In this document: positions 20,781 to 25,163 of the stretch, piece after piece | How the letters are laid out: every line of letters starts with the position of its first letter | Position numbering within the stretch: position 1 is the first letter of the stretch | Assembly: GCA_003054495.1 (NCBI GenBank) | Contig: CP028514.1 | Location: 546,501-610,500, forward strand | Length of the DNA stretch: 64,000 nucleotides | Direction of reading: 5' to 3' | Source: Carboxydocella thermautotrophica | Lineage (GTDB): Bacteria > Bacillota > GCA-003054495 > Carboxydocellales > Carboxydocellaceae | Translations under genes and position numbers: made by a program | The notes under the pieces: model-generated | Database searches by the model: none | What the model was told of the DNA's origin: nothing | The model's input: the letters and a program-made list of their open reading frames with translations, nothing else

Positions 20781-20810
20781 TTGACAAAATATTTACAGAA
20801 AAGGTAAAAT
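20781..20810 (+). promoter_or_regulatory. Promoter-like sequence before the unknown cassette
   Basis: TTGACA (20781-20786), 18 bases, TAAAAT (20805-20810). About 230 untranslated bases follow before the gene at 21044; no riboswitch is recognised in that leader. Confidence 0.5.
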
Positions 20811-21043
20811 AACATATATCAATGCGGGCGCTATCGCTGTCGACTTTTAGTCACTTGTTAAAGCAAATCAAAGATTCATCTTGCTGTAGACTGCAAAAGC
20901 GAAGTTACCAACTGCAATAGAAGTACACCAGATAACGTAAATGATGGGGAAATGGGTAGCACTTTAATTCAACTCTGCATTTTTATTTTATCTAGCCATA
21001 AATATATTACACAGAACTTTATTGGCTAGGGGGGTAACTTCAC

Positions 21044-21721
21044 ATGGCCTTAGTTGAGTTTCAGATATACTTTCCTATAGCGGATAGTGTAGTTTTAGAA
21101 TTTTGGGATTCGAGGACAAAACTGGCGCATATTCCCATGGATATTGATTCCGATGGATATTGGGAAAAAAGTATTAACTTGGATGATGGCTTGTATCACT
21201 ATTGTTTTTTCATTAATAACAGCTTTCGAGTCAATGACCCACAAACGTTTCCTGCTTATGTTCTAGAAAATGGTAAACCTATATCAAGTCTTGTAATCGA
21301 AAATTCCGAGGTTAGAAAATTAAATTATGATTCTGCTAATATAGAAGTTGAATACATAGACATGTATGCCGGAACGTCACGTTTGCCTAGACTCAACAGG
21401 GAATTCAGCAATTCTGATGGAGAAATAGGTATAAATATTGATTTCATTAAAGTTAAGGGCATACATCTAGTTAGTTTCGTATGGGTTAATCCTATGTTGG
21501 AAATAGCATACGTTTCTGATTGTATCGTATCAGGTAATCCTTCAGGCAAAGGACAAGCAGTTCAAGCTTCGGGTTGGATCACAACTGATCCCAATAATCA
21601 GCTAATCCCAGGCAAATGGCATCTTGTAGTTTTAGTAAATGGCAATGAAATTTGTTGTTTGCCATTCTATATACGAAGTTATTTCTACCGACTGCAACAG
21701 GGTAGAGTTATAGCCCTGTAA
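21044..21721 (+). CDS. Unknown protein with CBM48/AMPK-glycogen-binding-like N-terminus
   Basis: A 225-residue protein, AT-rich in codon use compared with the flanking core. The first 85 residues look like an E-set/CBM48 module: a strand-rich start, DIDSDGYWEKSINLDDGLYH near residue 36, FFINNSFRVNDPQ near 58. A second beta-rich half ends with a VWVNP...GWITTDPN...PGKWHLVVLVNG pattern typical of Ig-like folds. No signal peptide or membrane segment is seen. RBS AGGGGGG precedes ATG 21044. It heads a three-gene cassette with the next two genes. Function unknown. Confidence 0.65.
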   Translation: MALVEFQIYFPIADSVVLEFWDSRTKLAHIPMDIDSDGYWEKSINLDDGLYHYCFFINNSFRVNDPQTFPAYVLENGKPISSLVIENSEVRKLNYDSANIEVEYIDMYAGTSRLPRLNREFSNSDGEIGINIDFIKVKGIHLVSFVWVNPMLEIAYVSDCIVSGNPSGKGQAVQASGWITTDPNNQLIPGKWHLVVLVNGNEICCLPFYIRSYFYRLQQGRVIAL

Positions 21722-21739
21722 AAAATTAAAAATTATGGG

Positions 21740-22684
21740 ATGCATGGTAAAATGGGTATGGGGGACTTAAGGGTCGCCGAGAGAAAAGCAAGGTCAACAC
21801 AACAGTCGGCAGCAAACAAAACTTCTACTTCGACAGTTCAAAAAACTTCTACTTCAACTACTCAAAAATCTTCTACAACAACGAAACATACTCCAATAGT
21901 ACAACTAGCCAAATCCGGAGGCGCGGCTTCTACTAGTAGTATTTCATCTACACATAAATTCTCTGGGGCAGCAAAACAATTTTCATCTGGTATGGGAGGA
22001 TTAAGGGTAACCGAATCGAAAATATCGAGCAATTCTTCTTCCCCCACTAAATTCTTAGGAGCAGCGAAACAATCTTCACCTGGCATGGGAGGACTAAGGG
22101 TAGCCGAAGCCAAGAAGTTAGGCGAAAAAAATCTGGGGACAGGAAAATTTGTCGATGACAAAGCAACCTCAAAAACATTATTAGGAACTGATAACATGAA
22201 AAACGGTCCTAGTAACGCTAAGCTAAATTTGGGTAAGGCACAGGTATCTAGATTTAGTGGAGGACCTGGTGGAGTCAAAGGAGAAGCTTATACTGTGGAA
22301 ACAGGTGTAGAGATAATAAGCCTTGACAATCCTAAAAACTTCTTAGGATTTACTGCAGGTGTAGATGTAAATACAGGTGTTGTAAAAGGAGGACTTTATC
22401 TAGAAAGTGATAAAGGACTTGCACTGGGCAGTCTTGGAGGGGGTGCTTATGCTACATTAAAAGAAGGAAATCTTCATGCAAAGTTAAGGGTTGGCAATTT
22501 AAATGTGTATGCTAATGTAGGAGGAAATGTGGCGGGAATAGGTGCCATGGGTGAAGTCTCTATACTTGATAGACGGTCGGATGATTCATATCATATTTTT
22601 TCTGCAGACGGGTTACTAGAATTTTTAGTTGGGGCAAATGTCAATATTGACATTTATTTACAAGACAAAAAAAGCAAACACTAA
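21740..22684 (+). CDS. Unknown repeat protein with GMGGLRV motifs and glycine-rich beta domain
   Basis: A 314-residue protein of unknown function. The N-terminal half is rich in Ser, Thr and Lys and carries three copies of a short motif: MGMGDLRVAERK (residues 5-16), GMGGLRVTESK (84-94) and GMGGLRVAEAKK (115-126). The last two lie in a 31-residue repeat that also contains KF-x-GAAKQ. From about residue 180 the sequence becomes glycine-rich and beta-like (FTAGVDVNTGVVKGGLYLES, YANVGGNVAGIGAMGEV), resembling structural regions near the C-termini of some polymorphic toxins. The start codon is uncertain because no good RBS precedes ATG 21740. Confidence 0.6.
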   Translation: MHGKMGMGDLRVAERKARSTQQSAANKTSTSTVQKTSTSTTQKSSTTTKHTPIVQLAKSGGAASTSSISSTHKFSGAAKQFSSGMGGLRVTESKISSNSSSPTKFLGAAKQSSPGMGGLRVAEAKKLGEKNLGTGKFVDDKATSKTLLGTDNMKNGPSNAKLNLGKAQVSRFSGGPGGVKGEAYTVETGVEIISLDNPKNFLGFTAGVDVNTGVVKGGLYLESDKGLALGSLGGGAYATLKEGNLHAKLRVGNLNVYANVGGNVAGIGAMGEVSILDRRSDDSYHIFSADGLLEFLVGANVNIDIYLQDKKSKH

Positions 22685-22715
22685 AAAATACTTCAGCCAG
22701 AAAGGGATATAAACT

Positions 22716-23006
22716 ATGGCGTTTAAAACTTTAAAAAGTTTATTAAAAAAACTATTTATTTTTGATGAGTTTATGAGGATGTACTTAATAATGTTCTCTA
22801 TATTATACGTCATAGGGATATTCAAATTTATCTATCTCATAAACAGTATTATAGGATTCGTTCAATACGTGGGGTTAATGATTGGGCTGCTCATAGTTAT
22901 TGTACTTGGTCTTCACTTCTTTCAATTTCTATGTAGGTCGGTTGGTATGGACAAAATCTATACTAATATGAAGCAGATTATAATGAATAGAAATAAGAAA
23001 AACTAA
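22716..23006 (+). CDS. Small unknown membrane protein
   Basis: A 96-residue basic protein with two hydrophobic segments: IMFSILYVIGIFKFIYLI near residues 26-43 and a longer one, GFVQYVGLMIGLLIVIVLGL, near 48-67. It ends in a lysine- and asparagine-rich tail. An AAAGGG site precedes ATG 22716, and it follows the repeat protein by 31 bases, so it is probably co-transcribed. It could be an accessory or protective partner of the preceding protein, but nothing in the sequence proves this. Confidence 0.55.
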   Translation: MAFKTLKSLLKKLFIFDEFMRMYLIMFSILYVIGIFKFIYLINSIIGFVQYVGLMIGLLIVIVLGLHFFQFLCRSVGMDKIYTNMKQIIMNRNKKN

Positions 23007-23186
23007 TCATTAAAGATGCTTGAAGAGAGTACTACTCTATTAAGGTATGATTTATTGGGGTATGTAAATAGTTTTGTGTAAATGGTTTTTCCCTGGTAAT
23101 TGAGGGCATACTATAAACGGCTCTTACATTTCAGGAGGATAGGGCTCTGCTGGGGAGCAACCTGAGCGCCTGAAGTGGTTCTGCCA

Positions 23187-23207
23187 GGGGGGATTTCCCC
23201 CTTTTTT
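23187..23207 (+). terminator. Terminator-like hairpin inside the IS256 relic
   Basis: GGGGG and CCCCC arms with a short loop, then six Ts. It points along the + strand, opposite to the transposase, and no + strand gene follows. Confidence 0.6.
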
Positions 23208-23272: not shown

Positions 23273-24155
23273 TTATTGCAGTTTACTAGATAAGCGATCA
23301 CCAAAATATATTACTAATTGTGACATACATCTACCCCAGTCTCTGATTGGCATTGTCCATTTTTTGCTTATTTCCTGGGTTGCAAGATAAATTATCTTGC
23401 GCAAAGCATCATCCGTAGGATAAGCCGTTTTGGTTTTACATATTTTACGCAATTGTCTGTGGTAGCCCTCAACAATGTTTGTTGTATATATGAGCCGGCG
23501 GATTTCTTCAGGGTATCTAAAATATGCCGTAAGCTCAAGCCAGTTTCTTTCCCAGGATTTTATGACTAATGGATATTTACTTCCCCATTTTTCCCTTGAA
23601 TTTTTCAAAATTCAGCTCTGCTTCTTCAAGAGTTAATGCTTTATAGATTGTTTTAAGATCTGTTACCAAGGCTTTACTATCTTTGTAAGAAACATATTTT
23701 AAGGAATTTCTAATTTGATGGATTACACATAGTTGTATTTCTGTCTGTGGAAATACAGCCGCAATAGCCTCAGAAAAGCCGGATAAATTATCCTTTGCGT
23801 CTTGTACACCGTGGTTTTTAAGATCGTTCAAAACTCCCAACCAAAAACTAGCACTTTCATTTTCACCGATCCATATCCCGAGTACAACTTTAAAACCATT
23901 TAGGTTAATTCCTAAAACTGTATATGCAGCTTTATTAATAATACGTCCATCCTGACGTACTTTGAAATGGATGGCATCAAGAAATATGATTGGATAAACT
24001 GGCTCAAGAGGTCTGGATTGTCATTCCGTTATTTGAGGTAATATTTTATCCGTTATTTTGCTGATTAATGCAGGGGAAACTTCTATACCATAAATTTCTT
24101 TTAAATTGTCCTCAATATCACGATTGGATATTCATTTTGCGTACTTGGTATTATT
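23273..24155 (-). pseudogene. IS256-family transposase, inactivated
   Basis: Mutator-family transposase in pieces. From its N-terminal side: KITDKILPQITE is followed by TGA where a Trp codon is expected (about 24021-24023). Next come PVYPIIFLDAIHFKVRQDG with the first catalytic Asp, then AAVFPQTEIQLCVIHQIRNS. A frameshift near 23580-23605 follows, then YTTNIVEGYHRQLRK and the C-terminus ending at 23273. The N-terminal third is missing. With a stop, a frameshift and a truncation it cannot encode an active enzyme. Confidence 0.85.
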
Positions 24156-24235: not shown

Positions 24236-25163
24236 GTGCGCCCGGCATGGGCGTTGTCTATAGGGTGGAATTCCCGAACGGCGAAGGTAGCAGTAGCCGT
24301 AGCTTAAGACAAGGGTGTCCACCGTGAGGTGGAATCTGAAGGAAGTCGGCGGCAAACCTCCGGCCCGACGAACAGAAACCACATAAGAGGCTAGCGGCAG
24401 TTGGATGAGCTTGCCAAACAAAGCGAAGTCCTTGCTACCGAAGGCTGCCGAGAGTAAATGTGGCGGGTAGATGGAGGGAAAGACAGCGCTTTTACCCGGG
24501 GAGGTCTGCCGGAGATGTTGGTAATGCCAATAACCCAGGTTGTAAGGCCTGGCTGAACCGGCAGAAGTCAGCAGAGGTCATAGTAGCCAGTATTGACGTC
24601 AAACTGGTGAAGGGCCGAACACGAAGCGAGGGATGGACTTGGCAATAGCATGTATAGAGGGAAAGACAGAGTAGGAATCAGATTAGCCCCGGAAACAGTT
24701 AAACGGGTAAAGAATAGACTTCGGGAAATGACTTCTCGAAGCAAGGCAGAGAAGATTTCGGACCGCATCAAGAGCATCAATGCCTACCTTGGAGGCTGGA
24801 TAGGATACTATGCGCTGGCGGAAACGCCGAGCGGATTCCAGGAAATCGAAGGGTGGCTAAGGCGAAGGCTACGGATGTGCGTCTGGAAACAATGGAAACG
24901 TGTCCGAACCCGATACCGTGAACTGCGGGCCCTGGGCCTACCGGAGCGAGTAGTCCACATAATGGCTAATGCCCGTAAAGGCTACTGGCGTATGTCTCGA
25001 CAATTAAATAACGCCCTGAACAATGCCTACTGGCAAAGTCAGGGCTTGAAGAGTTTAACTGAACGTTATCATCGCATTCGTCAAGCTTGGTGAACCGCCG
25101 TATACCGAACGGTACGTACGGTGGTGTGAGAGGACGGGGGTTAATCACCCCCTTCTACTCGAT
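24236..25163 (+). mobile_element. Group II intron, bacterial class C-like, reverse transcriptase deleted
   Basis: The intron begins GTGCGCCCGGCATGGGCG, the typical class C 5' end, directly after a terminator. It ends with a domain V-like hairpin (GAACCGCCGT ... ACGGTGG, about 25090-25128) and a domain VI-like hairpin around GGGGGTTAATCACCCCC before CTACTCGAT. Only 928 bases remain, while full class C introns are near 1.9 kb. The missing part is most of the reverse-transcriptase gene; both ribozyme ends look preserved. The 3' boundary is good to a few bases. Confidence 0.82.
24650..25093 (+). pseudogene. Group II intron maturase, only domain X remains
   Basis: A 147-codon frame holding the maturase-specific domain of the intron protein: RLAPETVKRVKNRLREMTSR near the start and YLGGWIGYYALAETPSGFQE near residue 46, then a basic RRRLRMCVWKQWKRVRTRYREL stretch. 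All RT blocks, including the YADD active site, are absent. The deletion joins the usual start region to domain X in frame. The remnant might still be translated, but cannot reverse transcribe. Confidence 0.85.

Follow-up and report, generated by a model that had tools for sequence, protein, structure and literature searches.

A candidate effector cassette in Carboxydocella thermautotrophica organized around a CBM48-like and Ig-like protein

Layout and genomic setting of the cassette

The stretch of DNA analyzed here (hereafter the window) covers 64,000 nucleotides (positions 546501-610500) of contig 1 (2,690,058 bases) of the thermophile Carboxydocella thermautotrophica, whose genome comprises 2,743,125 bases in two contigs. 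It contains three consecutive genes, which we designate C, A, and B in their order of occurrence. An HD-domain gene and a terminator-like hairpin precede the promoter-like site of the cassette at 20781. The features of the cassette, together with two elements lying outside it that are given as context, are as follows:

20781-20810, plus strand: promoter-like site TTGACA-18-TAAAAT, with 11/12 consensus bases, by consensus only
21044-21721, plus strand: gene C, 225 aa, CBM48-like and Ig-like domains, proposed adaptor or chaperone
21740-22684, plus strand: gene A, 314 aa, polar low-complexity N-terminus and glycine-rich, predicted-beta C-terminus, proposed effector
22716-23006, plus strand: gene B, 96 aa, two hydrophobic helices, proposed protector
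23186-23205, plus strand: terminator-like hairpin 3' of the cassette
23273-23840, minus strand: broken Mutator-family (IS256-type) transposase in two pieces (PF00872, E 4.9e-15 and 7.2e-20), context
24318-25163, plus strand: group II intron remnant (RF02001, RF01998, RF00029; PF08388), context

The initial annotation had described these genes as a three-gene unit behind one promoter, distinct from its neighbors in base composition and followed by mobile-element debris, and most of this description is borne out. The three ORFs are separated by only 18 bp (C-A) and 31 bp (A-B), and in another C. thermautotrophica genome each of them is again intact. Synonymous and nonsynonymous differences between the two strains (C 0/1, A 2/1, B 1/1) are too few for a test of selection. 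GC content is 0.364 in C, 0.402 in A, and 0.278 in B, against 0.574 in the HD-domain gene directly upstream; per kilobase, it falls to 0.36-0.375 at the cassette versus mostly 0.49-0.59 upstream, in a setting of roughly 50-55%. Downstream, the broken transposase is accompanied by the intron remnant, which is recognized by three Rfam matches and retains a maturase fragment of just 147 aa. The single promoter fares less well: despite the 11/12 match at 20781, promoter-like sites across the region are no commoner than in shuffled sequence (6 observed versus a shuffle mean of 8.8), so a shared promoter is no more than plausible. A search for RNA families found none inside the cassette, and a weak lncRNA match at 23660-23752 fell below the gathering score and was ignored.

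The encoded proteins and the C family

As a single sequence searched against Pfam, C yields CBM48/AMPK matches that remain below the cut-off (E 0.013), whereas a C-family profile built from eight members (profile A4) matches AMPK-beta at E 2.7e-5. This profile match identifies the first domain of C as CBM48-related, in keeping with the CBM48-like protein of the initial annotation. The tryptophans of the FNNW and DGQW motifs in AMPK-beta, which we take to be the glycogen-binding residues, align with a non-aromatic consensus in the C profile, and these positions are not conserved across the C family. The predicted structure of C is all beta (pLDDT 72.5, pTM 0.68). Residues from about 94 to 220 are Ig-like by fold (3n6y: Z 11.0, rmsd 2.9, 109 residues aligned), and a further match of this second domain is to the carbohydrate-binding domain of Wzt (6o14: Z 10.4, rmsd 2.6, 106 residues aligned). 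The matches of the Ig-like part (to Wzt, UNC119, RbmA, alpha-2-macroglobulin, and viral proteins) were taken as evidence of fold only. Hydropathy analysis revealed no hydrophobic segment in C, and the family carries no name above cut-off in the four protein libraries searched.

A search with C across 398 genomes of the phylum returned matches in 11 genomes, representing 7 of 266 genera. Full-length C is present in five genera, namely Carboxydocella itself and four other sampled Bacillota genera, the relatives in this sample being G053, G057, G115, G151, G178, and G203. G004, G196, and G301 contain part of C only, within ORFs of 564-638 aa, and were left out of the full-length count. Profile A4, run on 397 genomes, matched 30, many through the first domain alone inside ORFs of 532-983 aa, which, judged by their size, are probably glycogen or starch enzymes; a match in G170 involves the Ig-like part alone, inside another protein, and was left uncounted. 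Within one order, C matches occur in 8 of 13 genomes, six of them full-length or near-full-length and some carrying stops, as in G400 and G401; G322 and G276, of the same order, retain the second C domain only. Gene C marks a real homologous family that combines a CBM48-like with an Ig-like domain.

Protein A carries the repeats noted initially as GMGGLRV: three GMG[GD]LRV motifs at residues 6, 84, and 115, of which two read GMGGLRV and one GMGDLRV. At the DNA level, the degenerate GMGGLRV pattern, allowing at most one mismatch, occurs three times in the window against 0.04 expected. The gene may start 12 bases further downstream, as the start listed for the second strain is the later ATG. By hydropathy, A has no hydrophobic segment; it matches nothing above the curated cut-offs in Pfam or NCBIfam, has no PHROGs match, and contains no recognized toxin domain. 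Protein B shows hydrophobic segments at residues 24-42 and 45-63, consistent with the two-helix membrane protein first described. A single-sequence structure prediction for the C-terminal part of A (pLDDT 37.7) was unusable.

The two searched genomes of this species are the only ones in which the exact trio of the window was found. Apart from two weak matches, the 398 genomes contain no relative of window A outside the species; the first of these matches turned out to be an orphan motif fragment within the genomes of the same species. This short ORF (L029 7766-7960; G000:C1:143765-143959), located in both strains with a Fic-domain gene on one side and a purL-like gene on the other, carries one GMGGLRV with further similarity to A residues 112-147 and resembles a surviving 5' portion of a second A gene. 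This N-terminal fragment is the sole comparison for a variable C-terminus in window A. The second weak match, in G175 (E 0.006), overlaps a lipoprotein-type, solute-binding-protein-like ORF and was dropped as chance. Comparison of window A and B with their counterparts at the fetched loci of relatives, using phmmer and hhalign, gave nothing usable outside the species. A pattern scan of viral contigs, which finds close relatives only, detected none of A or C, and plasmid and phage collections likewise contained no relatives of either; cargo of a phage or plasmid was accordingly rejected.

Related cassettes and the exchange of A and B

We read 14 distinct loci, the window counted as one of them, where C is complete or nearly so: the window, G057, G053, G115, three in G178, two in G151, G203, G398, two in G400, and one of two in G401. 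These loci are not independent, as ten come from one genus. An A-type candidate lies inside the cassette in 13 of the 14, and a membrane-type B in 11, the exceptions being G053, G057, and G115. Several cassettes are eroded: A is split in G203, and in the first G151 copy its start is probably disrupted, while in G398 it is lost, with 43-46 C-terminal residues of a class II A (classes defined below) persisting beside a class II B. In G115, the candidate is just a 101 aa ORF at a distance of about 430 bp, with an N-terminus of unremarkable polarity. In G053 and G057, the A partner is long, amphipathic, and helical, and its apolipoprotein-like matches stay sub-threshold. Judged from these sequences, the organization of the cassette recurs in relatives, and only C is homologous to a gene of the window. 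The earlier question of whether the trio recurs as a unit therefore has a mixed answer: the organization does, and window A and B have no detected relatives outside the species.

Comparison of class I with class II cassettes of one genus revealed a partition of similarity. C is 71-85% identical between the classes and A residues 1-150 are 42-46% identical, whereas A from residue 151 to the end and B are unrelated (best E 0.049 and 2.3, respectively). Within a class, identity reaches 65-99% for A from residue 151 onward and 42-95% for B; two class I cassettes of a single genome are 99-100% identical in C and A, with B at 83%. In class III (G400b), C is 33-35% identical to the others, the start of A is distant, and its C-terminus is unrelated. 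The B of class III retains a distant relationship to that of class I (26%; E 4e-7 for one pair), and as the corresponding A C-termini have no match, the pairing of A with B is not strict. Within this one genus, from which all the swap evidence comes, a switch of the A C-terminus is accompanied by a switch of B, and C and the A N-terminus remain related. The A proteins of this genus accordingly show the conserved N-terminus and variable C-terminus expected of polymorphic toxins; a putative immunity gene changing with the C-terminus is seen for classes I and II and is less clear for class III. Over its first 75 residues, A is polar, with the number of ORFs (of 338) matching or exceeding it being only 6 for the window, 3 for class I, 0 for class II, 0 for class III, 7 for G057, and 9 for G053. 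Class II A also has a glycine-rich hydrophobic stretch.

Module exchange extends to other proteins near the cassettes. A 229 aa C-terminal module recurs behind N-termini of two kinds (69% identity). A 77 aa N-terminal stretch is shared (87%) by proteins that differ in their C-termini, and in one of these the C-terminus is a phage-type lysozyme (PF00959, E 2.6e-29). The proteins concerned lie at L056 3349-4221, L026 1297-2241, and L022 16289-17362; the non-lysozyme C-terminus behind the shared N-terminal stretch also occurs on a different N-terminus. Further variation was observed around the cassettes. A shorter version, comprising a 125 aa protein, an 83 aa membrane protein, and a protein of at most 118 aa consisting of the second C domain only, is present in G322, G151, and G398, and its last two genes recur in G276. 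A tandem duplication of about 5 kb in G151 (L023 3529-13591) takes in a hydrolase-like gene as well as the entire cassette. In three genomes (L024 6519-7931, L054 8198-9610, and L051 8005-9403), a protein gene lies downstream of C; the L024 product contains a Big_4 domain, a trypsin-like protease domain, and MORN repeats, and its L051 counterpart reads as split. A chemotaxis-receptor-like gene adjoins C in G057 (L020 9568-11706) and G053 (L021 9614-11332).

Searches for delivery machinery covered 20 genomes. WXG100 genes exceeded the cut-off in 0 of 20, hence in no C carrier, and type VII delivery was rejected. The contractile sheath family PF04984 exceeded its cut-off in one genome, G399, which has no C match, and reached a sub-threshold match in the carrier G203; with no C carrier above cut-off, contractile delivery was likewise rejected. 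No LXG or other Pfam domain passed its cut-off in the A proteins, and no toxin domain was recognized in any A, whether of the window or of its relatives. The three window proteins matched 0 PADLOC families at E 0.01, and the A relatives gave coiled-coil-type matches only. A literature search by titles and abstracts found no description of such a cassette.

Candidate functions and comparison with known systems

The trio is best read as one variant of a gene cassette with interchangeable partners around a constant, sugar-domain-like helper protein. Our leading interpretation, held tentatively and at somewhat less than an even chance, is that A is a polymorphic membrane-acting effector, B a membrane protector, and C a conserved CBM48-Ig adaptor. 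The polar, motif-bearing N-terminus of A would serve as a handling or export region, and its C-terminal part would attack rival cells at their membrane or envelope. The small membrane protein B would protect the producer cell, and the soluble C, with its degenerate CBM48-like and Ig-like domains, would serve the A family as its conserved chaperone or adaptor. On this reading, A would be toxic, bound by C, neutralized by B, and released from the cell. The window's A and B would presumably behave likewise; as they have no detected homologs outside the species, the model is carried over to them through C and gene order. What argues for it is the co-switching of the A C-terminus and B against a stable C and A N-terminus, which is the anatomy of polymorphic effector-immunity modules, along with the spread of the C family, the class II A remnant beside a class II B in G398, the polar A N-termini, the glycine-rich hydrophobic stretch of class II A, and the module swaps nearby. 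The toxin-like effector with a membrane protector suggested at the outset gains indirect support from the co-switching in the relatives. Arguments to the contrary are that no toxin domain is recognized in any A, that window A and B are not homologous to those of the relatives, that no carrier has WXG100 or sheath genes above cut-off, that G053, G057, and G115 lack B, that A in G053 and G057 is a long helical protein, that the pairing is loose in class III, and that a single genus supplies the swap evidence.

Four known groups of systems or domains share features with the cassette. In LXG/WXG type VII cassettes of Bacillota, helper, toxin, and immunity genes form three-gene modules, and the toxins have glycine-rich hydrophobic C-termini; the cassette resembles them in phylum, gene number, and such C-termini, but differs in that neither WXG100 genes (20 genomes) nor LXG domains in A proteins rose above cut-off. 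Contractile and type VI effector adaptors are soluble helpers conserved beside variable effectors, as C is, but the only PF04984 genome above cut-off among the 20 lacks a C match. The first domain of C resembles the CBM48/AMPK-beta glycogen-binding domain by profile; unlike it, the domain in C is not attached to an enzyme or a kinase subunit but stands free, paired with an Ig-like domain, and the AMPK-beta tryptophan positions are not conserved. Polymorphic toxin systems, as described in the accessible text of PMC3482391, include an architecture of swapped modules like that near the cassettes, and the relatives' A proteins share with them a conserved N-terminus, an exchangeable C-terminus, and a co-changing neighbor. 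Cassette A differs from the systems in that text in having no known trafficking domain or recognized toxin domain, as does the cassette as a whole in its conserved CBM48-Ig gene, the term CBM48 having 0 occurrences there.

A non-toxic assembly at the envelope or inner membrane is a less probable competitor. A would be a helical or beta scaffold on the membrane, B its anchor, and C a carbohydrate- or peptide-binding organizer, with the variation in A arising from fast structural evolution and not from conflict. Membership of C in a carbohydrate-binding fold family by profile and its Wzt-like second domain are in line with this, and for the G053/G057 branch the long amphipathic helical A, the missing B, and the chemotaxis-receptor-like neighbors favor a scaffold. 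Two observations are better explained by effectors: the joint switching of B and the A C-terminus, and the nearby exchange of modules that involves a lysozyme. The AMPK-beta tryptophan positions, which are not conserved in C, also count against this assembly. The glycan-associated surface assembly of the initial annotation is weakened by the absence of visible hydrophobic segments from A and C and the lack of conservation at the AMPK-beta tryptophans.

We consider it improbable that the cassette acts inside the cell in conflict or anti-phage defense, with C sensing a ligand, B silencing a membrane-damaging toxin A, and infection releasing A. The accessory distribution (any C match in 8 of 13 genomes of one order), the AT-rich setting adjoining mobile elements, and the lack of a visible export signal would suit such a role, but the PADLOC results speak against it, as does the fact that no defense genes were noticed beside the loci read. 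More doubtful still is a remnant of foreign genes in a mobile-element scar, decaying or open by chance. The window's A and B lack detected homologs outside the species, the genome holds the orphan A fragment, and relatives are broken (stops in C of G400 and G401, a split A in G203); against this, no frame is interrupted in either of two strains, and the cassette has a good match to the promoter consensus in front and a terminator-like hairpin behind.

The effector interpretation has an extension that we regard as rather unlikely: the cassettes would form a new class among thermophilic Bacillota and their relatives that have neither type VII nor contractile machinery, with a putative export route that is undescribed. 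The CBM48-Ig adaptor, which would load or export repeat-motif effectors, would have arisen by recruitment of a degenerate CBM48 domain. The exchange pattern is typical of bacterial weapons and their antidotes, and a toxic role here is putative. If it is true, CBM48-Ig would be a conserved marker gene for finding hidden effector-immunity modules, one usable in bacteria showing neither of the two delivery systems tested. It would also raise the question of how proteins without visible export signals leave the cell, and would present a glycogen-binding fold turned into a protein adaptor.
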